A stretch of 64,000 bases of DNA, from positions 2,914,001 to 2,978,000 of the forward strand of contig NZ_CP049867.1 of the NCBI RefSeq assembly GCF_011299595.1. The letters run 5' to 3'. The notes below the pieces were generated by a model. It worked only from the letters and a program-made list of their open reading frames with translations, did not search any database and was not told where the DNA came from. Positions 24,123 to 59,471 of the stretch are shown here, in pieces. How positions within the stretch are numbered: the stretch's first letter is position 1; every line of letters begins with the position of its first letter. The translations under genes and the position numbers were made by a program. The stretch comes from Nocardioides sp. HDW12B. GTDB taxonomy: Bacteria > Actinomycetota > Actinomycetes > Propionibacteriales > Nocardioidaceae.

Positions 24123-24688
24123 CGTGCCTCCCCCTCTCCGGGGCCGGCGACGAGCGCCGGGTCGATCCTCAGCTTGGCCAGGGCCTTGCTGGTCTGGCTC
24201 TTGACGGTGCCGACGCTGCAGTCGAGGACCCGGGCGGTGTCGGCCTCGGACAGGTCCTCGAAGAAGCGCAGCACCACGACGGCCCGCTGCTTGCGCGGCA
24301 GACGCCCCAGGGCGTCCCACAGGTCGTGACGGTGGTCGCTGGCGCCGGCGAAGTCGCCGGCCCCGGCGTCGGGGAGCTCCTCGGTGGGGCGCTCACCGTT
24401 CCACTTGCGCCGCCAGGCGCTGGCGAAGGTGTTCACCAGGACGCGGCGGACGTAGGGCTCGGGCTCGCCGTCGATGCGGCCCCAGGCGAACCACGCCTTG
24501 GTCAGCGCGGTCTGCAGCAGGTCCTCGGCCAGGGCGTGGTCGCGGGTGAGCAGGTAGGCGAGCCGCAGCAGGCGGCTGGAGCGGGCCTCGACGAAGTCGT
24601 CGAAGCCCACCCGTCCGGGGTCGCCGGTCCGCTCCCCGCGCCCGGCCCGGGGCCTGGCCTCGTCGCGTCCGGTGGTCGTCGTGTTCAC
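24119..24688 (-). CDS. SigE-family (ECF-type) RNA polymerase sigma factor
   Basis: 189 residues from GTG 24688. Region 2 is clear (FDDFVEARSSRLLRLAYLLTRDHALAEDLLQTALTKAW...RRVLVNTF), and region 4 follows (LPRKQRAVVVLRFFEDLSEADTARVLDCSVGTVKSQTSKAL). This matches the SigE family of ECF group 41-like factors in actinobacteria. In-frame earlier starts exist at 24709 and 24754, but these lie in the probable promoter. It forms an operon with the membrane protein at 22746 and is divergent from nrdAB. Confidence 0.92.
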   Translation of the reverse strand: MNTTTTGRDEARPRAGRGERTGDPGRVGFDDFVEARSSRLLRLAYLLTRDHALAEDLLQTALTKAWFAWGRIDGEPEPYVRRVLVNTFASAWRRKWNGERPTEELPDAGAGDFAGASDHRHDLWDALGRLPRKQRAVVVLRFFEDLSEADTARVLDCSVGTVKSQTSKALAKLRIDPALVAGPGEGEAR

Positions 24689-24693
24689 ACCCT

Positions 24694-24722
24694 CTGTACC
24701 GCCCGGCATGGGTGAATGGTTG
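24694..24722 (-). promoter_or_regulatory. Possible autoregulated promoter of the sigma factor gene
   Basis: On the minus strand GGCAACCA is followed, after a spacer of about 15-17 bp, by GGTACAG just before GTG 24688. AACC-type -35 elements are usual for ECF promoters of this class. Weak evidence. Confidence 0.3.
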
Positions 24723-24758
24723 CCCAGAGCGTCTGGGATTTTCCCTTTCGACACGCCG

Positions 24759-24805
24759 CCCCAAGATGTGGTCCCACTTTTCGCCGCGGCCCCTACATAT
24801 GGTGG
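24759..24805 (+). promoter_or_regulatory. Two NrdR boxes, 31 bp apart
   Basis: Box 1 at 24759-24774 (CCCCAAGATGTGGTCC) and box 2 at 24790-24805 (CCCCTACATATGGTGG) each match the NrdR consensus acaCwAtATaTwGtgt at most conserved positions. Their centres are exactly 31 bp apart, three helix turns, as in known NrdR operators. Box 2 overlaps a TACATA -10 hexamer, so NrdR bound with dATP/ATP would block the nrdAB promoter. Confidence 0.65.
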
Positions 24806-25000
24806 CGCACGCAGCTGGTTCCCGACGTCAGCCAGACGTCGGGAGGCAAGAGGGAACCCGGTTCGACTCCGGGACTGCCCCGCAGCGGTGAGTGGGAACG
24901 ACAGCCGTCATGAGCACTGGGCGCGAGCCTGGGAAGCGACGGCCGGTAGGGGTCGACCGAGCGATCGGGAGGCGCGCCCACGAGTCCGAAGACCTGCCAG
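24806..25000 (+). ncRNA. Cobalamin (B12) riboswitch
   Basis: The leader contains the core of the cobalamin riboswitch in order: AAGAGGGAACCCGGTT, ACTCCGGGACTGCCCCGCA (B12-box region), GTGAGTGGGAACGACAGCC, GAGCACTGG, GAGCCTGGGAAG and, at the 3' end, CGAGTCCGAAGACCTGCC. A matching P1 segment lies near the 5' end. It precedes nrdAB by about 155 bp. In streptomycetes the same arrangement shuts down the oxygen-dependent class Ia reductase when B12 is present, because a B12-dependent class II enzyme can then serve. The same logic is inferred here; a class II gene would have to be elsewhere. Confidence 0.93.
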
Positions 25001-25154
25001 CGCGCCGGACCCGCCGGGTCCGGTGGTCCGAGGCCTCGTGGGACGGCCGACGGCTGCTGCGTCGCTGCGCCGGGTCACCCTCGGACGTTGCCGTCGTACG
25101 CCGTCGCCTGCTCGCGAGCCGGACCCTCCAGGACCGATCTCGCGAGGAGAGAGC

Positions 25155-27659
25155 ATGACGGTCACCGCAGCAACCAGCCCAGCACCCACCCCCTCCCCCC
25201 AGGGCCGCACCACGATGCAGGTGCGCAAGAGGAACGGCGACTCCGAGGTCGTCGATCTCAACAAGATCGTGCGCGCGGTCGACCGCTGCGCCGACGGGCT
25301 GGTCGACGTCGACCCGATGCGGGTCGCGACCCGCACCATCAGCGGGCTGTACGACGGTGCCACCACCGCCGAGCTCGACCGGCTGTCGATCCGCACCGCC
25401 GCCGACATGATCGGCGAGGAGCCGGAGTACTCCCGGCTCGCCGCCCGGCTGCTCGCCGGCTACGTCGACAAGGAGGTCCGCAACCAGGGCGTCGCCTCCT
25501 TCAGCCAGTCGGTCGCGCTCGGCCACGCCGAGGGCCTCATCGGCGACGAGACGGCGGCGTTCGTCAAGGACAACGCCCGCAAGCTCGACTTCGCCGTCGA
25601 CCACGGGGCCGACCGGCGCTTCGAGTACTTCGGGCTCCGCACCGTCTACGACCGCTACCTGCTGCGCCACCCCCAGACCCGCGAGGTGGTGGAGACGCCG
25701 CAGTACTTCCTGCTGCGCGTCGCCTGCGGTCTGGCGCAGAGCCCGGCCGAGGCGATCACGTTCTACCGGCTGATGTCGTCGCACGCCTACCTGCCGAGCA
25801 GCCCGACGCTGTTCAACTCCGGCACGCGCCACCAGCAGATGTCGTCGTGCTACCTCGTCGACTCCCCGCGCGACGACCTCGACTCGATCTACTCCCGCTA
25901 CGCCCAGGTGGCGAAGCTGTCGAAGTTCGCCGGCGGGATCGGCATCGCCTTCTCCCGGGTCCGCTCGCGCGGGGCGCTGATCCGCGGCACCAACGGCCAG
26001 TCGAACGGGATCGTGCCGTTCCTGCGCACGCTCGACGCGTCGGTCGCCGCGGTCAACCAGGGCGGTCGCCGCAAGGGCGCGGCCTGCGTCTACCTCGAGC
26101 CGTGGCACCCCGACGTCGAGGAGTTCCTCGAGCTGCGCGACAACACCGGCGAGGACGCGCGCCGCACCCACAACCTCAACCTGGCCCACTGGGTGCCCGA
26201 CGAGTTCATGCGCCGCGTGGAGGCCGACGAGCTCTGGTCGCTCGTCGACCCCGACCAGGCGCCGGAGCTGCCCGACATGTGGGGCGAGGCGTTCGACGTC
26301 GCCTACCGCCGGGTCGAGGCCGAGGGCCGCTTCGTCAAGCAGGTCAGGGCGCGCGACCTCTACAGCCGGATGATGCGCACGCTGGCGCAGACCGGCAACG
26401 GCTGGATGACCTTCAAGGACGCCGCCAACCGCACCTGCAACCAGACCCGGGACACCCCCGGCGGCCCGGTCGTGCACCTGTCGAACCTGTGCACCGAGAT
26501 CATCGAGGTCTCCTCCGACGACGAGACCGCCGTGTGCAACCTCGGCTCGGTCAACCTCGCCCAGCACCTGGCGTCGGTCTCGGTGCCCGAGAGCCTCGAG
26601 GTGACCGAGGCGCTGGACTGGGAGAAGCTGCGCGCCACCGTGCGCACGGCGGTACCGCTGCTCGACCGCGTCATCGACATCAACTTCTACCCCAGCGACG
26701 AGGCGGCCGCCTCCAACCCGCGCTGGCGTCCGGTCGGGCTCGGGGTGATGGGGCTGCAGGACGTGTTCTTCGCGCTGCGGCTGCCCTTCGACTCCCCCGA
26801 GGCGCGACGGCTGTCGACGCAGGTCGCCGAGGAGATCTACCTGACCGCGCTCGAGGTCTCGTGCGAGCTCGCCCGCGAGAACGGCCCGCACCCGGCGTAC
26901 GCCGAGACCCGCGCGGCCGGCGGCGTGCTCCAGCCCGACCTGTGGGGCGTCACCTCCTCGACCGTCCAGGACGGCGACGCCCGGTGGGCGCGGCTGCGCG
27001 CCGACGTCGCCGAGCACGGGCTGCGCAACGCGCTGCTGGTGGCGATCGCGCCGACCGCGACGATCGCCTCGATCGTGGGCGCCTACGAGTGCATCGAGCC
27101 GCAGGTGTCGAACCTGTTCAAGCGCGAGACGCTGTCGGGCGAGTTTCTCCAGGTCAACGCGGCGCTGACGCGCGAGCTCAAGGCGCGCGGGTTGTGGACG
27201 CCGGCTGTGCGGGAGGCGATCAAGCGGGCCGAGGGGTCGGTGCAGGGCGTCACCGAGCTGCCCGACGACGTCCGGCACCTGTTCCGGACGGCGTGGGAGC
27301 TGCCCCAGCGGGCGTTGATCGACATGGCGGCCGAGCGCTCGGCGTACATCGACCAGAGCCAGTCGCTCAACCTCTTCATCGCCGGGCCGACGATCCCCAA
27401 GCTGTCGTCGATGTACCTCCACGCCTGGAAGTCCGGGCTCAAGACGACGTACTACCTGCGCTCGCGTCCCGCCACCCGGATCCAGCAGGCGACGACCTCG
27501 GTGGTCGCTCCCCCGTCGTCCGAGCCCGCGTCGGCCGAGCGCGCGTCGGCCGAGCACGCGTCGGTCGAGCCCGTCGAGACCCCTTCGACGTCGGTCGAGC
27601 CCGTCGAGACCCAGCTCTGCTCCCTCGAGAACCCCGAGACCTGTGAGGCCTGCCAGTGA
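25155..27659 (+). CDS. nrdA: Ribonucleoside-diphosphate reductase, class Ia alpha subunit
   Basis: 834 residues from ATG 25155 with GAGGAGAG before it. ATP-cone at about 18-105 (VRKRNGDSEVVDLNKIVRAVDRC). Catalytic residues are in place: Cys in QQMSSCYL (about 232), Asn-Leu-Cys-Thr-Glu in SNLCTEI (about 445) and Cys in CNLGSVNL (about 461). The C-terminal CEAC pair (about 830) would pass electrons from thioredoxin or glutaredoxin. It makes dNDPs from NDPs together with NrdB, whose gene overlaps by 4 nt. The stretch about 785-820 is a repeat insertion (VEPVET twice) from a dispersed DNA repeat, inside the flexible tail before the redox Cys. Controlled by NrdR boxes and a B12 riboswitch. Confidence 0.96.
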   Translation: MTVTAATSPAPTPSPQGRTTMQVRKRNGDSEVVDLNKIVRAVDRCADGLVDVDPMRVATRTISGLYDGATTAELDRLSIRTAADMIGEEPEYSRLAARLLAGYVDKEVRNQGVASFSQSVALGHAEGLIGDETAAFVKDNARKLDFAVDHGADRRFEYFGLRTVYDRYLLRHPQTREVVETPQYFLLRVACGLAQSPAEAITFYRLMSSHAYLPSSPTLFNSGTRHQQMSSCYLVDSPRDDLDSIYSRYAQVAKLSKFAGGIGIAFSRVRSRGALIRGTNGQSNGIVPFLRTLDASVAAVNQGGRRKGAACVYLEPWHPDVEEFLELRDNTGEDARRTHNLNLAHWVPDEFMRRVEADELWSLVDPDQAPELPDMWGEAFDVAYRRVEAEGRFVKQVRARDLYSRMMRTLAQTGNGWMTFKDAANRTCNQTRDTPGGPVVHLSNLCTEIIEVSSDDETAVCNLGSVNLAQHLASVSVPESLEVTEALDWEKLRATVRTAVPLLDRVIDINFYPSDEAAASNPRWRPVGLGVMGLQDVFFALRLPFDSPEARRLSTQVAEEIYLTALEVSCELARENGPHPAYAETRAAGGVLQPDLWGVTSSTVQDGDARWARLRADVAEHGLRNALLVAIAPTATIASIVGAYECIEPQVSNLFKRETLSGEFLQVNAALTRELKARGLWTPAVREAIKRAEGSVQGVTELPDDVRHLFRTAWELPQRALIDMAAERSAYIDQSQSLNLFIAGPTIPKLSSMYLHAWKSGLKTTYYLRSRPATRIQQATTSVVAPPSSEPASAERASAEHASVEPVETPSTSVEPVETQLCSLENPETCEACQ

Positions 27660-28711
27660 CCACCACCGAGACCACCACCCCGTCCAGCCCCGCGCTGTCG
27701 ACCGAGCCCACCGGGATGCTGCTGGACCCGGGGATGAACCTGACGCTGCGGCCGATGCGCTACCCGCACTTCTACGACCGCTACCGCGACGCCATCAAGA
27801 ACACCTGGACCGTCGAGGAGGTCGACCTGCACTCCGACCTCGCCGACCTCCAGCGGCTCAGCGACGCCGAGCGGCACCTGGTGTCACGGCTGGTGGCGTT
27901 CTTCGCCACCGGCGACACGATCGTGGCGAACAACCTGGTGCTCAACCTCTACCAGCACGTCAACTCGCCGGAGGGGCGGCTGTACCTGTCGCGGCAGCTG
28001 TTCGAGGAGGCCGTGCACGTGCAGTTCTACCTGACGCTGCTCGACACCTACGTGCCCGACGAGACCGAGCGGCACGAGGCGTTCGCGGCGGTCGACAACA
28101 TCCCGTCGATCAAGGCGAAGGCGGACTTCTGCTTCCGCTGGATCGACTCGTGCTTCGAGCTCGACGCGCTGCGGACGCGCGAGGACCGGCGGGCGTTCCT
28201 GCTCAACCTCATCTGCTTCGCCGCGGTGATCGAGGGGTTGTTCTTCTACGGCGCGTTCGCCTACGTCTACTTCCTGCGCTCGCGCGGCTTCCTCAACGGG
28301 CTGGCGTCGGGGACGAACTGGGTGTTCCGCGACGAGTCGATGCACATGGCCTTCGCCTTCGACGTGGTCGACACGGTGCGGGCCGAGGAGCCCGACCTGT
28401 TCGACGACGCGATGGCGGCGCAGGTGCGGCAGATGCTGATCGACGGGGTCGACGCGGAGGCGCTGTTCGCCGAGGACCTGCTCGGCGGCGGGGTGGCCGG
28501 GTTGTCGGCGGCCGACATGCGCTCCTACCTGGAGTACGTGGCCGACCGGCGGATGGAGCGGCTCGACCTGCCGGTCATCTACGGCTCGGCCAACCCGCTG
28601 GCGTTCATGGAGCTGCAGGACGTGCAGGAGCTGTCGAACTTCTTCGAACGGAAGGTGTCGGCCTACCAGGTCGGCGTCACCGGCTCGGTCGGGTTCGACG
28701 AGGACTTCTGA
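27656..28711 (+). CDS. nrdB: Ribonucleoside-diphosphate reductase, class Ia beta subunit
   Basis: 351 residues, GTG start overlapping the nrdA stop (GTGA). Di-iron ligands are recognisable: Asp in FFATGDTIV, Glu and His in EEAVHVQF, Glu in AAVIEGLFF and Glu/His in RDESMHMAF. A Tyr stands four residues after the EAVH His, at the position of the radical-bearing Tyr122 of Escherichia coli, so this is a Tyr-radical enzyme. It supplies the radical to NrdA. A strong hairpin follows the stop codon. Confidence 0.96.
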   Translation: MTTTETTTPSSPALSTEPTGMLLDPGMNLTLRPMRYPHFYDRYRDAIKNTWTVEEVDLHSDLADLQRLSDAERHLVSRLVAFFATGDTIVANNLVLNLYQHVNSPEGRLYLSRQLFEEAVHVQFYLTLLDTYVPDETERHEAFAAVDNIPSIKAKADFCFRWIDSCFELDALRTREDRRAFLLNLICFAAVIEGLFFYGAFAYVYFLRSRGFLNGLASGTNWVFRDESMHMAFAFDVVDTVRAEEPDLFDDAMAAQVRQMLIDGVDAEALFAEDLLGGGVAGLSAADMRSYLEYVADRRMERLDLPVIYGSANPLAFMELQDVQELSNFFERKVSAYQVGVTGSVGFDEDF

Positions 28712-28877: not shown

Positions 28878-31800
28878 CTACCGCGGTGCCGTGCGGTCGT
28901 GACCGACCGCGAAGGCCGGCGCCGTGCGCGGCGCGAGCCGACGCCGCTGCTGCCACAGCACCGGTCGTCCGTCGCGTGCCCGCGCCAGCACCCACCGCCG
29001 CTCGAGCCGGAGCCCTCCGGCCGGGACCGCCGCCGGGTCGATCTCCGGCAGCACCTTCCCGCGGCGACCCGCGAGGAAGCGGCTGCTCGGGTCGGGCAAC
29101 GGGTTGTCCTCGGGGGCACCGTCGCCCGCGACCCGCAACCTGCCCTGCCGGAACCGCCGGGGCCCACCCGCGGACGGGTCGACCGCCGGGTAGGGGTGCC
29201 ACGGTCCGGGGGACGGCGCGGTGAGCCGGTAGCCGAGCGGCGGCGTGCCGACCACGCGGTCACCCGCGGCGACCCCGGACGGCGAGCCGACCGTGGCACC
29301 GGACGGGCCCGGTGCGTCGTGCCCGTCGATCCGCTCCTCGACGACCCAGAGCAGGTCGGCGTCCTCGTCGACGCCCATCACCACCTGCTCGAGCACGTCG
29401 CCGTGGAGGGGCGGCGGCGTGGCGAACCACGCGAGGAGGTCGTGGGGCTCCAGCCCCTTCGTGCGGAACGGCGTCGTCCACCCGTCGGCCTCCCGGCGCC
29501 AGCCCTCGCCCTCGGGAGGCCAGAGGTCCCCGAAGGAGTCCCGCACCTGCAGGTCCTCCAGGCGTACGACGTGACCCGGCGGGGTGGGGAGGTTGGCGAG
29601 GTACCAGTCGGTGGCGTGACCGGCCACGACGTCGAGGAAGAACAGCGACGAGACGTGGGTGGGGTCGGGCAGGTGCCCGGTCACCGTCCGCTGCGGGTCC
29701 TCGAGGGTGAACCAGCCGGGCTCGGGCGCGCCCGGGTAGTCCATCCGGCCGGGCAGACCGCGGAAGCGACGACGGCGGGCGACCGGGGTGAACGGCGTGG
29801 CCGGCCCACCGTCGAGCGGGCCGAGATCGAGCGACCACCAGTCGGCCTCGCCGCCGTCGTGCTCGCGCGCGGAGAACGGTGCCGCACCCGCCTGGGGCTC
29901 GGCGCTGTGCCAGAGCCCGACCGGGTCCCAGGGGTCGCCGCGTCCTCGGACGGGTCCGGGCAGCAGCACGTCGCCCGCCGCCGCCTCCAGCACCGCCTCG
30001 CCCGGCAGCCGCCGGGGGTCGGCGAACGGCCGCCCGGCCGGCGCGCGCAGCGGCGTACGGGAGGCCCGCAGGCGGTACTCCACCGGGCTCGACGCGTCCT
30101 CCCCCGCGTGCTCACCCAGCTGCCACTGCCGCGCCAGCATCCACACCGGGTCGCCCACCTCCGCGCGCAGCCCGGCGTCGAGGTCGGCGGCGTCCGGCGG
30201 CACCGGCTCGAGGCGCACGTGCAGGCCGCGGCTCCTGCCGCCGAAGACCGGCACGCCCTGCAGCTCGACGCCGCCGCGCTCCCCGGCCGGCAGGTGCAGG
30301 CTGGGCAGCAGCGCCCCGACGGAGCCGAGGCGCGAGGGCGGCACGCTGCGGGCGCGGGAGAGCAGCGCGGCCTGGCGCACGACGTCGCGTGCCGTCGCGA
30401 CGTCGACCTCCTCGCCCTCGCGCGCCGGTACGGCGAGCAGGATCGCCTGGGGAGGCCGGGCGCCCGGGGTGTGGAACGAGAACGCTGCGGTCACGGGTAC
30501 TTCGCGTGCGGGGAGGGTCTCCGTCCAGGCGTCCAGGACGCCGGTCGCGAGCGGTCCACCCCGCCCCTGCGGACCCACGACGACGTCGGAGACCCGTCCG
30601 CCGCCCTCCTCGGGCCGCCCCGTCCAGGGGTCGTCGGACGCGCCGTGCTGCCACGCCCAGCCGAGGGGCACCAGCGTGACCGTGCTGCGCACCCGCCCGA
30701 ACACCTCGCGCCAGTCGTCGGCCACGTCGGCCCCCACGGGCGGCAGCGTCCGCGCCGGCAGCAGCAGCGGCCCACGGCGTGCCGGTGACCCCGGCGCCGC
30801 CCCGGCTCCGCCGCCGAACGCCTGCAGCTCCGCGACCGGGTCCGTGACCGGCAGCGCGACAACGTCGGGGCCGGCACCGTCCGTGGGGACGGGCAGCAGC
30901 GCCCGCACCCGCGACGCGGCGACGCCGGCGGGTCCACGGACGCCCCAGCGGAGCGCGCGCCGGGCCAGCGCCGCCGGCAGGTCGGCACGTTCGTCGAGGA
31001 GCTCCAGGTCCTCCGCGAGGGCCCGGGCGGCCGCGCGCAGCTCCCGCACCCGGTCCACGAGGTCGTCGCGGGCGTCCGGCTCGAGGTCGGCGCCCGGGGA
31101 GCACCGCGCGAGCAGGTCGATGCGCCGGCGGGCCTCGGGCAGCCCGGTCGCGGGCACGACGTCGCTGGGTGCGGCTCCGAGCCGGGCGGCCACCTCGGCC
31201 AGCAGGGTGTCGTCGTCGACCGCGACGAGGTCGGCCACGGTCAGGCCGAGGTCCGCCAGGGTCACGCCGGCGCCGCCTGCCGACCAGAGCCAGGCGACGT
31301 CGTCCGGGTCGGGCAGCGCGTCGTCGAGGTGAGCCGACGCCGGCGGGCACGCGTCGGCAGGGACCGTGGCTGCACGTGCGGCGGCGACGTCGGGCAGGAC
31401 CACGTGCACCGTCGTGCGCAGCGGGACGCCACCGGCGGGCGTGGCCGGGAAGCGCAGCGGCGGTGGGGCGGCCAGTCCGGAGGCGGCGTCGAGCGCGACC
31501 GCTGCCTGGGCCGCGCCGCCAGTGACGGTGTCGTGCACCGCCTCGGCGACGAGCAGGTCGGCGAGGTCGGCGGGCAGCTCCGCGAGCAGCCCGAACCGCC
31601 GGGCCACCTCGCTCTCCGGCGCGAAGCCGGTGTCGGTCTCGATCGTGCCGGCGCGCACGGCGGCGAGCGCCTTCAGCCCGTCGCAGGTACGTCGACCCGC
31701 GTCCGTGCGGTGCGCGGGGTAGGCCCGCCGGAATTCGCGCACCTCCGGGTCGCCCGGGAGCAGCCGCTCGATCTCGCGGCCGAGCGCCTCGGCCGGGTGC

Positions 31801-34025
31801 GCCCCCTCCCGCACCGCCCGGGTGACCCGCAGCGTGAGCCGCACGCGCTCGGAGTCGAGCGCGACGTCATTCAGCCCGGCCGGCGGGAGCCCGTCCTCGT
31901 GCTGGGCCACGGCCCGGTCGCGCAGGATGGCCGCGGTCTTGGCCTGGTCGGGCGAGGGGGCCAGGGTGACCCCGCCGCGACCGAGCCCCGGCTGCCCGCG
32001 CCACGGCCGGTCGACGTACCCGTAGAGACCGAGCACCCGCGGCGCGTCGTCGCGCAGCCGCAGTCGGCGCCACGCCAGCCCGACGGCCCAGGGGTCGATG
32101 CGGTGCGTCGCCGTGTCGACGAGCGCTGCGGTCGCCCGGTCGAGGTCACCGCGCCGGCCCAGGGGGACGACGGCGAGCGTGTGGAGGGCGTCGAGCATCC
32201 GGTCGAGGTGCTTCTGCACCCAGGAGGTGTCCCCTCCTGGGGAGGTCCACGCGCTGTTGCCGTGGTCGCGCAGCGTCGGGCCACCGCCCGGGAGCGGTCC
32301 GGACGCGCCGTCGGCCGCCCAGACCCCCCAGCGCCACGTCTCGAGGACCGAGGAGCGCACGAGGTGGACGAGGAGGCTGTCCGGCCAGGGGTCACCGAGG
32401 CCCTCCAGGCAGATCTCAGGCGTCGCCCCGTCGCGCAGCCGGCCGAGGCGGTGCCACAGCCAGCCGAGCAGCACCCGCAGAGGCTCGTCCTCCAGCCGCG
32501 TCGCGAGCACGTCGCGCAGCCGGTCGTCGGAGGTGTTGCCGGCGACCTCGTCGAACATCCGCTCGACGAGGGCCCACTGGTCGGCGGTCGCGGGGTCGTC
32601 GCGGCGTGCCCGCGGCTCGGCCGGCGCCTCCAGGACGGGGCTGCGGTGCCCGACGGTGACCGGAGGGTCCGTCGCCCGGCCCACGTCGAGGCCGGCGCGG
32701 CCGAAGAGCTCGGTGACCGCGTCCTCCTGCGTGCGTTGGACGTCGGGGCCGAGGTGCCGCACCGGCAGGCTCCACCGCCACGCCCACGAGGGAGAGGTCG
32801 GCGTCCGCCCGAGCACCCGGAGCAGGCGCTCGCCGTCGGCCTCGAGCACGGTGTCGTCGTCCTCCCGCGCGAGCCGGGCGACCTCGTCCAGCGCCACCTC
32901 GAGCGCCGGCGCCAGACGGTCGTCGACCGGGTGGCCGTCCCCCGCCCCGACGAGCGGGGTGAGCGGGAGCACGCCGTACGGCTGGTCGTCGACGAGCAGC
33001 GTGGCCAGCGGGCCCTGCGGGAGCAGGTGGTCGAGGACCCAGCGCCCCAGCTCGTCCGCCGGCCACGCGTCGTCCGGCCCCCACAGGTCCTGGGCGGCGT
33101 GCCCCCACAGCGACGGCCACGCCACGCCCACGAGGCCGTGCTGGGCGCCGCGGTGGTCGACGTCGCCACCGACGAGCCGCGGCAGCCCCGCGGGGTCGCC
33201 GGTGACGGCGCGGGCCAGGTCCGCCGTGGCCGTCTCGCCGGTGTCGGCCAGCGGCACGGGGACGTCGCGCGGCAGCAGCAGCGCGTGGTGGGCGCGGGGG
33301 GTGGGCTGCGGGTGACCGGCGCCGGCGGTCACGTTGGTCGGGGTGCCGGGAGGCAGCAGCGCGGCGTTGCCGGCGTGCGCGTGCGCGGTGAACAGGTCCG
33401 CCGCCGGGGTCGTCCCCACCCCGACGACCACGAGGCGGCGGAGGTGCTGCGGCTCGAGGGGCCAGGCACCGAGGTCGATCGTGGTCGCCAGCCCCGCCCG
33501 TCGCAGGACCCGCCACGAGGCCCAGAAGACGTTCGTCGCCTCGCCCGTGTCCGGGTCATTGCGCGGCGGCTGGACGGGCAGCGAGCGGGCGCGGGGTCTT
33601 AGCGTGTCGAGAAGGTGGTGGCCGGACTCCGTCTCGGCCCAGACCTGCAGCTCCTCGGGTAGGCCCCTCATGGTCGCCGGCGCAGGCTCCACGTCACCAC
33701 GCGCGACGGCCTCGGCACGGTCGACGGACCAGCCGTCCGCAGCGACCGCGAAGCGGGTGCGCACGAGCCACAGCGCACGACCAGCACCTATTTCTTGTGC
33801 GAGCGACTCGAAAGCACGGGCACCCTCGGGCTCGAGCAGCCGCCCGTCGCAGGCGGCCGCGGCCGCCTCGAGGCGGTCGAGCTCGTCGTGACGCACCACC
33901 GGGTCGTGGACGTCGACGGACGCCTCGCCGGGGACGACCAGCAGGCGGAGCCGCCAGCCGCCGTCGAGCAGGTCGAAGCGGGTCTCGAGACGGGCGGGCA
34001 GGAGCACGCCCACGCTGCCGCTCAT
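28878..34025 (-). CDS. Giant protein of unknown function (VRLETRF / MLARQWQ motif family)
   Basis: 1715 residues from ATG 34025, which overlaps the upstream gene by 4 nt. No signal peptide or membrane helix. The N-terminus (VGVLLPARLETRFDLLDGGWRLRLLVVPGEASVDVHDPVVRHDEL) matches a pattern I recall from large uncharacterised bacterial proteins (LLPVRLETRF, then a strand, then a Glu-rich helix). Near residues 1285-1310 stands VGDPVWMLARQWQLGEHAGEDASSP, the hallmark of a second uncharacterised family. The protein thus looks like a fusion of two such modules. Middle regions are Asp/Ala/Leu rich and often helical. It is the last gene of a three-gene operon. No enzymatic motif was identified; the function is unknown. 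Confidence 0.85.
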   Translation of the reverse strand: MSGSVGVLLPARLETRFDLLDGGWRLRLLVVPGEASVDVHDPVVRHDELDRLEAAAAACDGRLLEPEGARAFESLAQEIGAGRALWLVRTRFAVAADGWSVDRAEAVARGDVEPAPATMRGLPEELQVWAETESGHHLLDTLRPRARSLPVQPPRNDPDTGEATNVFWASWRVLRRAGLATTIDLGAWPLEPQHLRRLVVVGVGTTPAADLFTAHAHAGNAALLPPGTPTNVTAGAGHPQPTPRAHHALLLPRDVPVPLADTGETATADLARAVTGDPAGLPRLVGGDVDHRGAQHGLVGVAWPSLWGHAAQDLWGPDDAWPADELGRWVLDHLLPQGPLATLLVDDQPYGVLPLTPLVGAGDGHPVDDRLAPALEVALDEVARLAREDDDTVLEADGERLLRVLGRTPTSPSWAWRWSLPVRHLGPDVQRTQEDAVTELFGRAGLDVGRATDPPVTVGHRSPVLEAPAEPRARRDDPATADQWALVERMFDEVAGNTSDDRLRDVLATRLEDEPLRVLLGWLWHRLGRLRDGATPEICLEGLGDPWPDSLLVHLVRSSVLETWRWGVWAADGASGPLPGGGPTLRDHGNSAWTSPGGDTSWVQKHLDRMLDALHTLAVVPLGRRGDLDRATAALVDTATHRIDPWAVGLAWRRLRLRDDAPRVLGLYGYVDRPWRGQPGLGRGGVTLAPSPDQAKTAAILRDRAVAQHEDGLPPAGLNDVALDSERVRLTLRVTRAVREGAHPAEALGREIERLLPGDPEVREFRRAYPAHRTDAGRRTCDGLKALAAVRAGTIETDTGFAPESEVARRFGLLAELPADLADLLVAEAVHDTVTGGAAQAAVALDAASGLAAPPPLRFPATPAGGVPLRTTVHVVLPDVAAARAATVPADACPPASAHLDDALPDPDDVAWLWSAGGAGVTLADLGLTVADLVAVDDDTLLAEVAARLGAAPSDVVPATGLPEARRRIDLLARCSPGADLEPDARDDLVDRVRELRAAARALAEDLELLDERADLPAALARRALRWGVRGPAGVAASRVRALLPVPTDGAGPDVVALPVTDPVAELQAFGGGAGAAPGSPARRGPLLLPARTLPPVGADVADDWREVFGRVRSTVTLVPLGWAWQHGASDDPWTGRPEEGGGRVSDVVVGPQGRGGPLATGVLDAWTETLPAREVPVTAAFSFHTPGARPPQAILLAVPAREGEEVDVATARDVVRQAALLSRARSVPPSRLGSVGALLPSLHLPAGERGGVELQGVPVFGGRSRGLHVRLEPVPPDAADLDAGLRAEVGDPVWMLARQWQLGEHAGEDASSPVEYRLRASRTPLRAPAGRPFADPRRLPGEAVLEAAAGDVLLPGPVRGRGDPWDPVGLWHSAEPQAGAAPFSAREHDGGEADWWSLDLGPLDGGPATPFTPVARRRRFRGLPGRMDYPGAPEPGWFTLEDPQRTVTGHLPDPTHVSSLFFLDVVAGHATDWYLANLPTPPGHVVRLEDLQVRDSFGDLWPPEGEGWRREADGWTTPFRTKGLEPHDLLAWFATPPPLHGDVLEQVVMGVDEDADLLWVVEERIDGHDAPGPSGATVGSPSGVAAGDRVVGTPPLGYRLTAPSPGPWHPYPAVDPSAGGPRRFRQGRLRVAGDGAPEDNPLPDPSSRFLAGRRGKVLPEIDPAAVPAGGLRLERRWVLARARDGRPVLWQQRRRLAPRTAPAFAVGHDRTAPR

Positions 34026-36400
34026 CCGGACACCCCCACGGTGGCGGGCCCCTCGAGCAGCACCCGCAACGGCTTGTCCAGGTTGGCCTTCGCCCACGCC
34101 GCGCTGTCGGCCGCGGTGACGGTGCGGCCGAACCGGATCCCCTCGGGCATCTCCTGCACGACGACCCAGTGGTCGTCGACGACGTCCGGGTCGCGGTCGA
34201 AGGCGAACATCGTGAGGTCCGGTCCCATGGCGGAGACCGAGCGCGGCAGGACCGGTCGCGCGAGGTCGGGCTTCCGGTCGGCGAACCCGGTCCCCGGCGT
34301 GTGCGGGGCGAGGAAGAGCAGGGTGCGGGGGTAGCGCCGGAACAGCTCGGAGCGCACCACCACGACGAGCCGCTCGGCCCGCACCCCCGCCGGGGCGTGG
34401 GAACCCAGCCGGCTGCCGTCCAGCCACCGCCTCACCGGCTGGACGTCCTCCCCCGCGGTCTCCGGCTCGCCGTCGTCCGGGGCGGCGTCCCAGAACCGGC
34501 GCAGCGGCGTGCACCCGACCGCCACCGGGTGCTGGCGCCACGACAGCTCCCCCAGCGCGCGGTGGTTGAGCCCGAGCAGGAACGCCTCGACGAACTCCGG
34601 GCACGTGCGCATGGCGACGACCTCGCCGGGCCCGAGGGTCTCGGCCCCCGGCAGCAGCCAGTGCGGCACGACGTCACGCACGTAGGGCCAGGCCGGCAGG
34701 TCGATGTCGGGGCAGTCGCGCAGCGGGGCCAGCGGCTCCTCGTCGTCGTGACCGGTCAGGCGGCCGGTCACCCGACGGCGGGCCGACCCCGACGTCGCAC
34801 CCGCCACGAGCACGTCGACGACCGCCTCGGGCCGGACGCGTCGCGGCGGGTCGGTGGGCTCCACGTCGACCACGATCGGCACCTCGAGCTCGTTGAGCAC
34901 CCCGCGCAGCGTCCGGTCCACCTCCTCGGCGCTCGTCGCTCCCCCGCTGGTCTGCTCCAGCCGGTGCCCGAGGCCGTCGAGGTGCCCGGCCTCGACCTCC
35001 CACGGGTCGGCGCCGGTGGCGATGTCGTCCTTCGGCCGGGCCGGGACCGGCAGGCCCTCGGCGGCGCGCTGCTGCAGCTCGACCTGGCCTCCGGCGTCCC
35101 GCAGCCGGTCGCGCCCGACGGCGCGCGCGACCTGGGGGCCGAGCAGCCCGACCGGGTACGCCGCCGACCCCGGCTCGGGCTCGCCCAGCGCGCCAGCGAG
35201 GGAGGTGGCGGTGGGGTGGTCGTCGACCGGCAGCCGGTGCGCCGCCGGGCCGAGCAGCCCGAGCTGCGACGCCGGGTCCGCGGGCAGCCGGCGTCGCCAC
35301 TGCGCCTCGGCGGCGGCGGTCCCGAGCGCCAGGGAGCCGATCAGGTCGGCGGTCCAGCGCCCCTGGCCCCACTGGGCGTCGGCGGCCGCGACGATCTGCT
35401 CCTGCAGGTCGATGCCGGCCTGCAGACCGACCCCGGCGATGGCCCGCACCCGCAGGTCGGCGTTGACCTGCGCCGTCCACGGCCACTGCGCGTCCGGCAG
35501 CGGCCGGGCCGCCTCGACCTCGGCGCGCACCTCGGCATGCCCCACCCAGGCGTCGCCGTACGCCGGGGGCTGGACGTACTCACGCCCCTGCCGATCCGTC
35601 TCGACCGTGAGCACGTCGTGGTCGCGGGCCGGGCTCCCGGGCTCGATCGGGTCCCAGGTGAAGCCCAGCGTGGTGAGGGCGCCCGGGACCTCGACCTCCT
35701 CGCCGCCGAAGGCGACCTTCACGGTGCCGACCTCGTCGTTGTCCGCGGCGTGCAGCTGCAGCGCGAGGTCGTCGAACGTGCCCGCGGCGCCGGTGCGGAA
35801 GGTCCAGGAGTGGAGGCAGAGCACCTCCGCGGGCGCGCTCCCGTCCCACGCCGGCCCGCCGTCCTTCCACGGCACCACGAGGGCAGCCACGTAGTCGCGG
35901 TCCGCCAGCAGCCGTGCGGGGCTCACGACGCGGGAGAAGCCGGAGCCCGCCGACGCTGTGCGGGGTCGCTGCACGTGGGCCCAGAGCCGGACCCGCACGA
36001 GGTCGTGGTCGGCCTGGGTGGTGGTGCCCAGGGTCGCCCGGTCGCCGGCGACGGTCACGTCGGAGGGCTCCCCGACGACGAGAGCCAACCACGGGCGGGG
36101 CGGGCCGCCGTCGGTGAGGCCGTAGCGCCACGGCAGGTCCTCGGTGGCGAGCTCGACGTAGGGGCAGTGCTCCTCGTCGGCGTCGCGGTCCCCCGGCGGA
36201 GGCACGACCTGGCGGATCGCGCCGGGCTGCAGCGCCCGGACGTCGGCGGGCCCGGGCTGGGCGAAGCGCAGCAGGCTCGGCACCGACTCGCGGTCGTCGC
36301 GCAGCTCGAAGGCGACGTCGGTGGTCGGACGCCCGCCGACCGGCGCCGCCCCGGCACCGCCCCGGCGCGACCACGCCGCGAAGGCCAGCTCCTCGATCAC
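34022..36400 (-). CDS. Large protein of unknown function, middle gene of giant-protein operon
   Basis: 792 residues from GTG 36400, overlapping the stop of the upstream gene by 4 nt (GTGA). No signal peptide. The first 120 residues carry QPGPADVRALQPGAIRQVVPPPG, then CPYVELATEDLPWRYG (about 78-93), then PRPWLALVVGE. This pattern (GPGDV.. VVRT.P.., .EF...DLPWRYTP, L.PWL.LVV) recurs in large uncharacterised proteins I remember from diverse bacteria. The remainder mixes beta-rich and helical parts; near residue 550 there is a segment ending in DLPAWPYVRDVVPHWLLPG. It is probably a structural partner of the two other products. The function is unknown. Confidence 0.85.
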   Translation of the reverse strand: MIEELAFAAWSRRGGAGAAPVGGRPTTDVAFELRDDRESVPSLLRFAQPGPADVRALQPGAIRQVVPPPGDRDADEEHCPYVELATEDLPWRYGLTDGGPPRPWLALVVGEPSDVTVAGDRATLGTTTQADHDLVRVRLWAHVQRPRTASAGSGFSRVVSPARLLADRDYVAALVVPWKDGGPAWDGSAPAEVLCLHSWTFRTGAAGTFDDLALQLHAADNDEVGTVKVAFGGEEVEVPGALTTLGFTWDPIEPGSPARDHDVLTVETDRQGREYVQPPAYGDAWVGHAEVRAEVEAARPLPDAQWPWTAQVNADLRVRAIAGVGLQAGIDLQEQIVAAADAQWGQGRWTADLIGSLALGTAAAEAQWRRRLPADPASQLGLLGPAAHRLPVDDHPTATSLAGALGEPEPGSAAYPVGLLGPQVARAVGRDRLRDAGGQVELQQRAAEGLPVPARPKDDIATGADPWEVEAGHLDGLGHRLEQTSGGATSAEEVDRTLRGVLNELEVPIVVDVEPTDPPRRVRPEAVVDVLVAGATSGSARRRVTGRLTGHDDEEPLAPLRDCPDIDLPAWPYVRDVVPHWLLPGAETLGPGEVVAMRTCPEFVEAFLLGLNHRALGELSWRQHPVAVGCTPLRRFWDAAPDDGEPETAGEDVQPVRRWLDGSRLGSHAPAGVRAERLVVVVRSELFRRYPRTLLFLAPHTPGTGFADRKPDLARPVLPRSVSAMGPDLTMFAFDRDPDVVDDHWVVVQEMPEGIRFGRTVTAADSAAWAKANLDKPLRVLLEGPATVGVSG

Positions 36401-38649
36401 GGCGCCCCCCAGACGTCGGCGACGGAGAAGGCCGGCTCGCCCAGCGGCAGCGCGACGGCGTCCCGGCCTGCGGCCCGGTCCGTCGCGGCGTCCACCACCG
36501 AGGCCGTCCACGACCGGGCCTCGTCGGCGCGGTCGGGTCGCGCAAGCTCCCGCACCGACCAGGCCTCCGGCCCCACCGAGAGCCGGGCGTCCTTCAACCG
36601 GGTCTCGGCCGGGCCCTGGCTGGCGGCCAGGCGGGACAGCAGCGCCGAGCTGAGGGCGAGGGTCGTCGCGCTGGGCAGGCGGTCCCCGGGGGCGAAGACG
36701 TTGCGGTAGTCCAGGGTGGCGTCACGCGCTGCAGCGGCGCTCGGCAGCAGCGGCACCTCGACGCCGGACGGCAGGTCCTCGAAGGCCGGCAGCGACAGCA
36801 GCTGGTCGCGATCGGCGTCACGGAAGGAGGCCGGGGCGAAGGGCGCCACGACGCCGGCGGTCCCGCCTGCGGCGAGGTTGGCGACGCCCACCCGGGTGGT
36901 GCGCCCGACGCGCCGACCCTGGACGCGCTGCAGGTCGTGGTCGAGCGGCGCGAGGGTCTGGCTCCACCGGACCGCTCCCAACGGGTGGACGACCGCGACG
37001 CCCTCTGCCGTCCGGCTCGGGGCGTCGAGCACGACGTGCGGGTCGTGGCCCGCCGTACCGCTGATGTTGGCAGGCACCACCTCGGCGGCGAGCGCGGCCG
37101 CGACGCGCTCGGCCAGCGGGGGTTCGGGAGCCCGGTCCGACGAGCCGAGCACGAAGCGGTCGTTCCACGAGGCCTTGGCGCCCATGAAGCTGACCCGCAC
37201 GCGGCCGCGCACCACGACCGGGCCGGGGGCGTCGAGCGAGCCGTGGAAGTCGACGCCGGCGAAGTCGATCCCGAGCGCCTCGATCTCCACGCCGCCGTGC
37301 AGGTCGACGTGCAGGTGGAAGGGGTCGAGCTGGGCGATGGCGTCGAAGGACAGGAAGCCGTGCGCGGAGAGGATCCCGACGTCGAAGCCGATCTCGAAGC
37401 GCGCGCCGGCCTGGAACGTGCCGCCGGTGAAGGCGAGGTAGCCCTCGAAGCGGAAGGTCAGCGGCAGCGGGATGCTCGGGCCGAACGAGATGCGCCGCTG
37501 CTCCGGGAGGCCAGGCACCTGGGTGCGGTAGCCGGGGTAGAAGCCGCCGAGGGTGAACAGCGTGTACGCCGGCCGCGCGGTCGAGATGCGCATCGCGGCG
37601 GTGCCGCCGGCACGGAAGATCCCCATCACCCGGCCCTCGACGACGGCGAGGTCGACGGCGTAGTAGCCGCGCGGGACGTCGATCTCGCCGAGCAGGTCGA
37701 GGCGCAGGTCGAGCATCGGCGGGATCGCCACCGCGCCCCGTCCGAGCACGAGCACGCGACCGCGGGGCAGCTCGAGGAGCAGCACGAGGGAGATGCGCAG
37801 CAGGGAGGCGCCGCCGACCTGCAGCCAGGTCAGCTCGACCGACGGGCCCACGACGACGCTGCCGGAGCGGCTCGTGAAGGTCTCGCGCACGGCGGGCAGG
37901 AGGCGGTCGCCGGCGCTCGGGTCGGCGGGGAAGAACAGCGCGAGCGCGGTCCCCTCGCGCAGCCGGCGGCGCAGGACGTCGGAGTCGACGCCGACGTTGA
38001 CGCCGACGACGCCGCCCAGGCTGGAGATCTCGAAGCCGAAGCCGAGCTGGATCCCGGGGGTGAAGCGGGCGCCGAGGATCGCGACGAACGAGACGGTGCC
38101 TCCGTCGACGGCCAGGCGTCCGAGCGCGCCGGCGGCGATCGCGCCGGCGTTGAAGGACAGGTGCCCCGTCGCGCCGCGGCGGTCGGCGTCGACCAGGAAG
38201 CCGCCGCGCAGCTTGGTCGGGCCGGCGTCGAGGGCGCCGGCGAGGCCGCTGGCCGGCAGAAGGCCCACGAGCAGGGCCTCGCCCTGCGCCCGGGCGGTCG
38301 TCACGGCGGTGTGCTGGGCGCGCATCGCCAGGGGGCCCAGCGGCGCCTCCGTGCGCCAGCCGGCGAGCATGCGGGGGTCGCCGTCGAAGATGGTGCGGGC
38401 GAGCCCGGCGTCGAGGCCGGGGATCGGCGGCAGGGCCAGGGCCTCGCCGATCAGGCGCTCCGCGTCGGCTCGGGTGCCGCCGGCGACCTGCGCGAGCTCG
38501 GTGCGCCACTGCTGCAGCGCCGCCTGCACCTGGCCGGCGGCGGCGGCGCGGACCTGCTGCGCCGCGGCCTCCAGACGGACGCGCGCCGTCGCCGGGTCGG
38601 GCGCCGCAGCAGCCAGCGCTGAGACCAGCAGGGGCAGCCCCTCAGTCAC
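36397..38649 (-). CDS. DUF6603-like beta-rich protein, first gene of giant-protein operon
   Basis: 750 residues, GTG 38649 with GGGGGA 5 nt upstream. Residues 1-130 are Ala-rich helices, probably coiled coil. Residues about 150-500 form a long series of amphipathic beta strands: GHLSFNAGAIAAGALGRL, GYYAVDLAVVEGRVMG, FTLGGFYPGYRTQVPGL, LPLTFRFEGYLAFTGGTFQAG, GFLSFDAIAQLDPFHLHVDL. This order closely resembles DUF6603 proteins as I recall them. No signal peptide is evident, so outer-membrane-like export is unlikely in this monoderm. It probably builds a beta-helix or sheet scaffold. The RBS lies in one arm of a hairpin, so translation may be controlled. The function is unknown. Confidence 0.85.
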   Translation of the reverse strand: MTEGLPLLVSALAAAAPDPATARVRLEAAAQQVRAAAAGQVQAALQQWRTELAQVAGGTRADAERLIGEALALPPIPGLDAGLARTIFDGDPRMLAGWRTEAPLGPLAMRAQHTAVTTARAQGEALLVGLLPASGLAGALDAGPTKLRGGFLVDADRRGATGHLSFNAGAIAAGALGRLAVDGGTVSFVAILGARFTPGIQLGFGFEISSLGGVVGVNVGVDSDVLRRRLREGTALALFFPADPSAGDRLLPAVRETFTSRSGSVVVGPSVELTWLQVGGASLLRISLVLLLELPRGRVLVLGRGAVAIPPMLDLRLDLLGEIDVPRGYYAVDLAVVEGRVMGIFRAGGTAAMRISTARPAYTLFTLGGFYPGYRTQVPGLPEQRRISFGPSIPLPLTFRFEGYLAFTGGTFQAGARFEIGFDVGILSAHGFLSFDAIAQLDPFHLHVDLHGGVEIEALGIDFAGVDFHGSLDAPGPVVVRGRVRVSFMGAKASWNDRFVLGSSDRAPEPPLAERVAAALAAEVVPANISGTAGHDPHVVLDAPSRTAEGVAVVHPLGAVRWSQTLAPLDHDLQRVQGRRVGRTTRVGVANLAAGGTAGVVAPFAPASFRDADRDQLLSLPAFEDLPSGVEVPLLPSAAAARDATLDYRNVFAPGDRLPSATTLALSSALLSRLAASQGPAETRLKDARLSVGPEAWSVRELARPDRADEARSWTASVVDAATDRAAGRDAVALPLGEPAFSVADVWGAP

Positions 38650-38654
38650 TGCGT

Positions 38655-38676
38655 CCCCCGGCGGTCGAGCCGGGGG
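38655..38676 (-). promoter_or_regulatory. Hairpin covering the ribosome binding site of the giant-protein operon
   Basis: CCCCCGGC (38655-38662) and GCCGGGGG (38669-38676) form a perfect 8-bp stem with a 6-nt loop. On the minus-strand transcript the arm nearest the GTG holds the GGGGGA Shine-Dalgarno sequence, so the folded form would hide it. Confidence 0.45.
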
Positions 38677-38857
38677 CGATGGTCGAACTTCCTACCCGCA
38701 TGCGACTCCCCTCGTGGGACGCCCGAGCCGCCGTTCCTTTACTTTCCCAGCATTCGCACCGGCCCCGGAGGGTCGCAATGGTCCGAAGTGACCAGAAGCC
38801 CGGCTCGCGGTGAGTGCGTTGTTCCCTTTGCCCGATCTGCTCGGGCCGGGAGGTCGC

Positions 38858-39445
38858 TCAGCGCTCCTCGAGCCGCTTCTTGCGGATCACCTCGACGACG
38901 TCGAGGTGGCTCTCACGGCGCCACTCGGCGACCCGTTCGAGGTCCTGCCACAGCTCGGAGCTGCTGTGGCCGAGCCGCTTGTGGTGCCACACGAGCGCGT
39001 CGCCGGCGTAGTCGACGTACGCGATCTCGCGGGCCTCCCGGATCGCGGTGAGCGCCTCGACCGCGTCCCACCCCTGGTGCAGTAGGACGGCGAACCCCAG
39101 CGACGGCCCGCGGTTGATGCCCATGTGGCAGTGGGCCAGCACGATGCCGCCGGCGTCGATGGCCTCGACGGCGAAACCGACCGTGGTGTCGAAGAAGTCG
39201 GCCGCCACCCGCTGCCCGGCGTCGTCGATGCCGTGGTGGAGGTAGCCGACCTCCGGCGCGAGCTCCGCCACCAGGTCGGCGTCGTTCGCCTCCACACGGA
39301 CGTCGACGATGTGCGTCACCCCGGCGGCCACGAGCTCCTCGAGCTGACCGGCCGCCATCGACTGGTCGAACGACAGGTCTCCCCCGACGAGCAGCTGCGG
39401 AGTGACGAAGTGAGCGTTGGCGTGACGCAGGCTGGGCAGGCTCAT
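38858..39445 (-). CDS. Dual-specificity/tyrosine phosphatase-like protein
   Basis: 195 residues from ATG 39445. The P-loop HCHMGINRG (catalytic Cys about residue 105, Arg six residues on) fits the C(X)5R signature of the Cys-based phosphatase superfamily, and an Asp in HHGIDDAG about 30 residues earlier is a candidate general acid. The LLVGGDLSFDQS opening and THIVDVRVEANDADLV are usual for this fold. The Arg spacing is correct, so activity is plausible on phosphotyrosine, phosphoserine or phosphoinositides. No membrane segment. It is divergent from the TPP enzyme gene with 117 bp between the starts. Confidence 0.88.
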   Translation of the reverse strand: MSLPSLRHANAHFVTPQLLVGGDLSFDQSMAAGQLEELVAAGVTHIVDVRVEANDADLVAELAPEVGYLHHGIDDAGQRVAADFFDTTVGFAVEAIDAGGIVLAHCHMGINRGPSLGFAVLLHQGWDAVEALTAIREAREIAYVDYAGDALVWHHKRLGHSSSELWQDLERVAEWRRESHLDVVEVIRKKRLEER

Positions 39446-45809: not shown

Positions 45810-46775
45810 TCAGGGGGCGGGGCACGGTGCTGCGCGGTCGGTCCGGGCGTTGGCCCGGGACCGGTCGTCGCTCGCGCGCGGCTTCTCGCGGACGCGCTCG
45901 CGGGGCTGCTCGACGCAGCTGTCCGTCTCAGGCTCCAGCTGACCGGTGAAGAACTCTCCGAGCTTCTCACCGAGCGGGGGCAGCACCGTCGGGGCCGCCG
46001 CCGCGGCGCCGAGGGTGAGGGCGGTGACGACGAGGGTGCGCGACAGCGTGCGAGCGGCCTTGCGTCGCTTCGTCCGCTTGGCGTCGGGGGCCGGGCCGGC
46101 CAGGACGACCGGCGCCACGGGTGATGGCGCGGAGGGCAGCGAGCTCGGCATCAGGCTCGGGGCCGGCGTCGCCATCGGACTCGGCGTCCGACCGGGCGAC
46201 TGGCTCGGAGCGGTGCGCGGCTCGGTCGCCGACCGCAACTGCCGGTCGAACTGCTTCGCCACCTCCTTGACCCGGGCGCTGACGAGGAGCGGCGGTCGTG
46301 AGGTCAGCATGCGCCGGAGGTTCGAGGTCGAGCAGATCATCACGCCGCCCATCGAGCCCGAGAGGTTCTCGTCCCGCGCGAAGCACAGGACCGGGCGGAC
46401 CAGGCTCGCGTACGCCGGCGCCAGCTCGGCCACCGCCAGCGCGGCGTCGGCGGCGGCCGCCACGGTCCGCTCGCGGGAGCGGCCGTCCTGGCGCAGCACG
46501 GCACCCTCGACGGTCAGGCGTCCGGCCCAGTTCTTGGTGTCGATGACGAAGATGCCGCCCGGCCCGATGACGACGTGGTCGATGTTGGCCAGCCGCCGTC
46601 CGGGCCAGCGCACATCGTGCAGGACGACCCAGTCGCGGCCCAGGCGCGACAGCGCTTTCGCCGTACGGGCCTCGCCGTCGGCGCCCTTGTCGAACATCTC
46701 CGCGCGCCGCTGCAGACGGGCGGCGCGCTCCCGCACCCGCTGCGCCTCGTTCCGCGCTGAATCCCCCGCACCCAT
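45810..46775 (-). CDS. NERD-domain nuclease-related protein with C-terminal membrane helix
   Basis: 321 residues from ATG 46775. After a basic helical N-terminus, a NERD domain spans about 25-170, with ANIDHVVIGPGGIFVIDTKNW containing the Asp and Asp-x-Lys of the PD-(D/E)xK fold. A Pro/Ser-rich linker (about 190-225) leads to a basic patch and one membrane helix (TLVVTALTLGAAAAAPTVL), then a charged tail with one Cys. NERD proteins are predicted to process DNA or RNA; a membrane-bound nuclease could act on incoming DNA. It is divergent from the duplicated-domain gene at 47012 and near a NERD helicase. A TAGTCT -10-like box lies at 46801-46806. Confidence 0.85.
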   Translation of the reverse strand: MGAGDSARNEAQRVRERAARLQRRAEMFDKGADGEARTAKALSRLGRDWVVLHDVRWPGRRLANIDHVVIGPGGIFVIDTKNWAGRLTVEGAVLRQDGRSRERTVAAAADAALAVAELAPAYASLVRPVLCFARDENLSGSMGGVMICSTSNLRRMLTSRPPLLVSARVKEVAKQFDRQLRSATEPRTAPSQSPGRTPSPMATPAPSLMPSSLPSAPSPVAPVVLAGPAPDAKRTKRRKAARTLSRTLVVTALTLGAAAAAPTVLPPLGEKLGEFFTGQLEPETDSCVEQPRERVREKPRASDDRSRANARTDRAAPCPAP

Positions 46776-46960
46776 GTAGCCGCCCCTCTCCCAGGACACC
46801 AGACTAAGGCGACAATTCGTCTTCAGGCCGACGGATCGCTGAGAGCGAGCCGAGCAACTTCTCCCCCTGCGTCCGCGGGTGGTCGAGACGCGGACCCCTG
46901 CCGGTCTCACCTGGTCCAGCCCGCAGCCTTTCGCCTCTGCCGCCCCCGTGGCGTGCGGCG

Positions 46961-46993
46961 TAGCGTCGAGACGCCCTTCTGGGGTGAAGGGCG
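46961..46993 (+). promoter_or_regulatory. TAGCGT -10 box and 5' hairpin
   Basis: -10 box TAGCGT at 46961-46966 is followed at the expected transcription start by an 8-bp hairpin CGCCCTTC (46972-46979) / GAAGGGCG (46986-46993), about 20 nt before the AAGGGGAAG ribosome binding site of the gene at 47012. Confidence 0.45.
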
Positions 46994-47011
46994 GGACAGA
47001 AGGGGAAGCAC

Positions 47012-47620
47012 ATGTTCGTACAGGTGATCCAGGGACGCGTGTCTGACGCCGCGGCGATGCGCGCGCAGATGGACCGGTGGAGCTCGGAGCTGGCGCCTGG
47101 CGCGACCGGGTGGCTCGGCAGCACGACGGGAGTGACCGAGGACGGGACCTTCGTGGCACTCGCGCGTTTCGAGTCACCCGAGGCCGCGCGGGAGAACAGC
47201 GACCGCCCGGAGCAGACCGCGTGGTGGGAGGAGACCGCGAAGCTCTTCGACGGCGAGCCGGAGTTCCACGACGGCACCGAGGTGGACGTCGACCTGACGG
47301 GCGACCCGGACGCGGCCGGCTTCGTGCAGGTCATGCAGGGACGCACGAGCGACCCCGCCCGGGCCCGGGAGGTGATGAACGACGACTCCATCGACTTCGA
47401 GAAGTACCGCCCCGACATCCTCGGCTCGATCAACGTCCAGCACGACGGCGACGCGTGGACGATGGCGCTCTACTTCACCTCAGAGGAGGAGGCGCGCGAG
47501 GGCGAGAGCAAGGAGCCGCCGCCGGAGATGGAGAGCATGATGAAGGAGCTCGAGTCGTTGTCGCTCGGGGAGCCGAGGTACTTCGACCTCAAGGACCCCT
47601 GGCTGCACTCCCCCGGCTGA
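47012..47620 (+). CDS. Duplicated ferredoxin-like (ABM-type) domain protein
   Basis: 202 residues with AAGGGGAAG 4 nt before ATG. The protein is two copies of one domain: FVQVIQGRVSDAAAMRAQMDRW at the start and FVQVMQGRTSDPARAREVMNDD from residue about 104. Each has the strand-helix-strand pattern of dimeric alpha/beta-barrel (antibiotic biosynthesis monooxygenase-like) domains. No cofactor motif is seen. Very acidic overall. Widespread uncharacterised actinobacterial family; function unknown, perhaps a small-molecule sensor or heme/redox-related protein. Lies between the two NERD genes. Confidence 0.8.
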   Translation: MFVQVIQGRVSDAAAMRAQMDRWSSELAPGATGWLGSTTGVTEDGTFVALARFESPEAARENSDRPEQTAWWEETAKLFDGEPEFHDGTEVDVDLTGDPDAAGFVQVMQGRTSDPARAREVMNDDSIDFEKYRPDILGSINVQHDGDAWTMALYFTSEEEAREGESKEPPPEMESMMKELESLSLGEPRYFDLKDPWLHSPG

Positions 47621-47637
47621 CCGGTTGGCGCTGTCCG

Positions 47638-49293: not shown

Positions 49294-49336
49294 GGCGCCG
49301 ACCCTGCCACGCCTCTGCGGCCCGTGCCGGGCTTCC

Positions 49337-50569: not shown

Positions 50570-50675
50570 GCTCGACCCCCGTCGGTTGGTGTTCCCTGGT
50601 GCGTCTCCGACGCTAGAGAGCCCCCCCGACACAAAGATCGTGGGCGGGGCGGGGGCTTCACGGCACGATGGGCTG

Positions 50676-52441: not shown

Positions 52442-52512
52442 CGCGGCACCGGTCGAGAATCAGATCGATCACCGCGCAAGCAGCGCCGTCTTCGGCTCTG
52501 CAAGCGCGCCGC

Positions 52513-59465: not shown

Positions 59466-59471
59466 GTCCAC

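Follow-up and report, generated by a model that had tools for sequence, protein, structure and literature searches.

What purpose is served by overlapping genes for very large proteins in the actinobacterium Nocardioides sp. HDW12B is the question raised by a stretch of 64,000 nucleotides of its genome (contig NZ_CP049867.1, positions 2,914,001 to 2,978,000; hereafter the window). A reading made from the sequence alone (the sequence-only reading) had proposed a three-gene operon encoding 750, 792 and 1715 residues with overlaps of 4 nt, which the open reading frames (ORFs) on the minus strand of this complete, high-GC genome of 4.19 Mb bear out at both junctions (A/B and B/C-D; Table 1). As long ORFs arise on both strands at 74-80% GC, length alone is no proof of a gene; it is the coding-type third-position GC of 0.89-0.96 and the homologues in the same order across phyla that identify all three as true genes. 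Comparison with relatives shows, on the other hand, that the supposed three-part system, correct for the genes of the window, consists of four modules, namely A, the predicted DUF6603-like protein; B, the protein with the motifs DLPWRYG and PWLALVV; and C and D, the VRLETRF and MLARQWQLGE modules. The latter two are joined in the third gene as had been stated, are encoded by separate genes in almost all relatives and were found fused only in the window and at one other locus examined (G112/L058). Together the modules constitute a four-part system that is widespread in many bacteria and some archaea and is apparently undescribed and without a name.

As a unit of fixed order, the four modules are passed on together in many phyla as well as in haloarchaea. 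Scanning of species-representative genomes for D identified 478 relatives, of which the best 80, taken for locus analysis, come from Actinomycetota, Pseudomonadota, Myxococcota, Bacillota, Bacteroidota, Planctomycetota and other groups; the cassette is also recorded on plasmids of haloarchaea, Nocardia, Streptomyces, Rhizobium and Paraburkholderia. Wherever the upstream DNA is intact, the modules that a locus contains are ordered A, B, C, D on one strand, and hidden Markov model (HMM) matches place all four modules of the window, with C and D fused, in the same order and on the same strand. Of 72 loci with sufficient DNA before the cassette, 54 show it complete and in order; ten of the 18 incomplete ones were followed further, and in nine of these DUF6603 lies just past the locus edge on the same strand, while an assembly gap accounts for the tenth (Nostocoides japonicum was rejected as an incomplete cassette because of an assembly gap). 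DUF6603 was present in all 43 whole genomes checked, median start gaps between cassette genes range from -4 to +2 nt, and the pairwise divergences of the modules correlate (Spearman 0.79-0.87 versus permuted maxima of 0.07-0.43), to a degree partly raised by common descent of the host genomes.

Equally, the families are tightly linked and not scattered, scattering being what would have spoken against the sequence-only reading: among 395 genomes of the class, DUF6603 occurs in 37, D in 15 and both in 13 versus 1.4 expected (P 4e-13), while B is found in 14 genomes, all with D, and DUF6603 and D are absent from all same-family genomes among those listed in this sample. The D tree mixes phyla, its well-supported branches forcing at least seven changes for Actinomycetota and eight for Pseudomonadota, a pattern that is consistent with horizontal transfer and no proof of it. 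The D module of the window forms one of the three longest branches, with actinobacterial proteins in the nearest rows. It is unusual for four very large proteins to form an apparently nameless cassette that is kept in strict order over such a range of hosts.

Three of the four families lack a Pfam entry. The B and C-D proteins of the window have no match in Pfam, NCBIfam, PHROGs or PADLOC, and a wider comparison of divergent members with Pfam gave nothing for 48 B members except FG-GAP in one, and isolated matches such as FG-GAP or lamin tail in single members for 30 C members (none for C of the window) and 66 D members. Homology among A, B, C and D was rejected, as profile-versus-profile comparison found the families unrelated to each other. 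The AlphaFold2 model of D (pLDDT 80, pTM 0.78) found nothing in the PDB below E 0.1 (best Z 4.4), which as absence from a match list is no proof of a new fold; D is the one predicted fold for which no solved relative was found.

The fourth family has a name of limited content. Protein A is a member of DUF6603 (Pfam PF20248) with 224.7 bits versus a gathering score of 27, covering profile positions 27-494 of 502; the entry, however, names the domain without a function and says nothing on B, C, D or an enzyme, and DUF6603 is named in no paper found in a literature check limited to open-access papers. In the AlphaFold2 model, N-terminal helices are followed by a long amphipathic beta-meander core (residues ~130-501, pLDDT mostly >85) of about 20 long strands, most of which have one hydrophobic face according to strand amphipathicity analysis of the model, and we read this predicted core as an open, curved amphipathic beta-sheet. 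The best PDB match by Foldseek is the beta-belt of apoB-100, a long amphipathic open beta-sheet such as is predicted for A; the match is weak (E 5e-4, TM about 0.2, 7% identity) and A differs in being bacterial and in showing no signal peptide. By a simple hydropathy check, no part of A, B or C-D reaches the hydrophobicity of a membrane span or signal peptide, in line with the claimed lack of signal peptides. An outer-membrane pore was set aside for A, as porins score high (Z up to about 14) but at a root-mean-square deviation (rmsd) of 11-14 angstroms to barrels, and no signal peptide was seen; furthermore, the host is a high-GC actinobacterium, homologues occur in haloarchaea and a signal-like stretch as of an outer-membrane beta-barrel is missing.

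The claimed lack of enzyme motifs stands for the window, but a first clue to the purpose of the system is provided by the enzyme that relatives often encode beside A or D. The gene directly before A usually overlaps A or lies within tens of bases of it, and this first upstream gene varies by locus, encoding according to Pfam a PhoD-like phosphodiesterase, an S8, trypsin-like, M64, M14 or M23 peptidase, a galactose-oxidase-like protein, DUF2515 or an unknown protein. In one branch the enzyme gene comes after D; in Cupriavidus and Nocardia, an S8 peptidase is found downstream of D, its gene overlapping D by 4 nt in a plasmid record of Nocardia. Among first upstream genes, 12 of 38 are matched by seed enzymes, compared with 1 of 263 among those further upstream (P 3e-11), a figure that measures recurrence at the position, since the seeds were taken from sibling loci. 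The adjacent enzymes inspected show no strong N-terminal hydrophobic stretch and no obvious signal peptide by a hydrophobicity heuristic. Known examples of M23 and galactose-oxidase-like proteins have substrates outside the cell.

A C-terminal domain of ~100 aa with the core AWHR..GPALV is common to seven S8 and trypsin-like proteins and gave four strong matches in 43 cassette genomes, all directly before A. The M64 and M14 enzymes before A (L184, L185) carry a tail like CFI-box-CTERM, just or well below the curated cut-off. Some other proteins next door to the cassette in relatives are of nSTAND-WD40 (nSTAND1) and kinase-WD40 type.

The constancy of the scaffold combined with a swappable, signal-less and often outside-acting enzyme suggests carriage or restraint. 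We favour, tentatively and at slightly less than even probability, that A-B-C-D is the constant part of a multi-protein assembly which arises in the cytoplasm and whose task is to bind, carry or restrain a single exchangeable enzyme, in most cases a hydrolase. In such an assembly, the shared C-terminal domain would dock the enzyme onto A-D, the hydrophobic face of A might touch lipid or an unfolded cargo, the body might be made up of B, C and D, and the enzyme would be set free outside the cell or into a target; all of this, from the formation of a complex through docking and membrane contact to export, is inferred, and use for delivery and use of the enzyme as a conflict effector are both compatible with the scaffold. 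A more specific version, which we consider rather unlikely, is a hitherto undescribed, phage-independent carrier in bacteria and archaea. Here, the four proteins would form a particle in the cytoplasm, a dedicated docking domain would load it with the signal-less swappable hydrolase, and its apoB-like amphipathic sheet would pass the hydrolase through or into a membrane. The interchangeable enzyme is a direct handle on purpose, since it allows one scaffold to be studied with different enzymes, and if the system does export or unleash enzymes, it would represent a novel type of machinery for delivery or conflict.

Several points weigh against this proposal. Next to the operon of the window there is no hydrolase or oxidase gene of the types that are common, not universal, in relatives, no protein with the shared domain was found in a search of the host genome, and about 40% of the sampled loci lack an identified enzyme. 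The only gauge of signal peptides was a hydrophobicity heuristic, with enzyme start sites uncertain, and the rarity of the shared domain elsewhere derives from a limited search without positive control. Equally, the nSTAND-WD40 and kinase-WD40 neighbours fit intracellular signalling better than delivery.

These same neighbours lead to the strongest rival, an intracellular conflict or programmed-death complex in which A-B-C-D would keep a toxic enzyme (peptidase or phosphodiesterase) inactive in the cytosol until infection or stress leads to its release. The enzymes without obvious signal peptides and the patchy, cross-phylum distribution agree with this explanation, while the M23 and galactose-oxidase-like neighbours, with their outside substrates, and the absence of an NTPase, nuclease or sensor domain in A-D speak against it. 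Known conflict systems pair trypsin-like and S8 peptidases and recruit effectors by effector-associated domains (EADs), and EAD-linked peptidase system 3 has small domains common to its effectors and sometimes STAND NTPases nearby (PMC7159879), all of which is reminiscent of the cassette loci. On the other hand, no EAD was found in Pfam scans of the enzymes of relatives, where the shared domain corresponds to no known EAD, NucA, of the known core (NucA, trypsin or VMAP type), was not found for the cassette, PADLOC gave no match for the window proteins, and DUF6603 is absent from the text of PMC7159879. We prefer the scaffold with interchangeable enzyme, held tentatively, over a conflict complex, which we regard as unlikely.

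Distinctly improbable is a lipid-associated structure, in which A would be an apoB-like beta-belt or lipid-transfer sheet, A-D would coat an inclusion or bridge membranes and the neighbouring enzymes would process the contents. While the open amphipathic meander and the apoB-100 match point in this direction, TM-scores are low and the rmsd of A to its structural matches overall is 9-14 angstroms, porins score similarly to apoB-100, and peptidase neighbours are unfit for lipid stores. No more probable is that A-D form a self-contained enzyme or envelope complex with adjacent enzymes as only loosely related neighbours; enzyme-less members such as the window copy and the W, R, D and E residues conserved in B, C and D would be accommodated, but neither the strong position-specific enrichment of enzymes nor the shared domain found nearly only beside A would be expected.

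Large co-encoded proteins with variable neighbours are also a feature of extracellular contractile injection systems (eCIS). That the cassette is what remains of a contractile injection system, a phage tail or a toxin complex, or is related to one of these, is highly improbable, and an origin from phages or injection systems was rejected, as there is no PHROG, Pfam or PDB sequence match, including none to domains of Tc-type toxin complexes, no viral fold match for D in BFVD and no confident viral contig with the cassette. In eCIS, too, a constant core of several genes has spread horizontally in bacteria and archaea, accompanied by variable genes for enzymes or toxins (PMC8213781); the core proteins of the cassette are, however, unrelated to theirs by sequence and D is unmatched by fold. 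Sheath, tube and baseplate proteins were not found at the locus, nor, as the sequence-only reading had noted, any phage genes (Pfam for the operon and about 20 ORFs around it; PHROGs for the three operon genes), and a clear match to an injection apparatus or toxin complex, which would have refuted that reading, was not found. MT835531.1 ('Bacteriophage sp.'), the only match in a phage collection, was discarded as a phage with A-D, since with 76% GC it looks like an actinobacterial chromosome. In IMG/VR, one short match to D is located at the end of a 4-kb contig.

DUF6603 also occurs in a second operon type in which C and D are absent. Among 12 such operons examined (L068-L079), eight carry a B-like protein (profile match to B, E 4e-15), which is why DUF6603 and B may be the older core of the system. 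Most carry another large recurrent protein with the motif GVHLQWALP...PNRWLV, and some have, as read from the sequence, a metallo-beta-lactamase-fold or LysM/amidase-like neighbour.

Table 1. Operon features in the window (positions counted from its first nucleotide)
Feature	Coordinates	Strand	Basis
Gene A: DUF6603 protein, 750 aa, GTG start	36397..38649	-	ORF; Pfam PF20248 E 2.6e-66; AlphaFold2 model; strand amphipathicity
Gene B: 792 aa, GTG start, DLPWRY and PWLALVV motifs	34022..36400	-	ORF; homologues adjoin DUF6603
Gene C-D: 1715 aa fusion, ATG start	28878..34025	-	ORF; halves are separate genes in relatives
Module C: residues 1-1260 of C-D, VRLETRF family	30246..34025	-	HMM match to stand-alone C genes
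Module D: about residues 1262-1715 of C-D, MLARQWQLGE family	28881..30242	-	478 relatives; AlphaFold2 model
Intergenic stretch of 208 nt upstream of A, probable promoter place for the operon	38650..38857	-	sequence

The window copy, whose host genome contains one DUF6603 gene, is a very divergent, C-D-fused and enzyme-less member that may be derived or cargo-less; as no enzyme gene lies beside it, its own cargo may have been lost. The intergenic stretch before A was searched for a sigma-70 consensus and a terminator consensus and neither was found. Beyond this stretch, 208 nt upstream of A, lies a gene for a DSP-type phosphatase-like protein (38858-39445, minus strand) with the CX5R motif CHMGINR, which is patchy in the family and was rejected as cargo, since same-family genomes carry it without the cassette. 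Downstream of D, convergent genes for the large and small subunits of ribonucleotide reductase follow (24672-28711, plus strand), the version of the small subunit being patchy within the family. Further away, a TY-Chap chaperone-like protein is encoded beside two proteins with NERD domains, one of which also has a helicase domain (45810-50839, minus strand). The region 52500-64000 is of lower GC (0.63-0.66 from about 54 kb) and resembles a defence island, containing large genes, two WYL regulators and an McrBC component.
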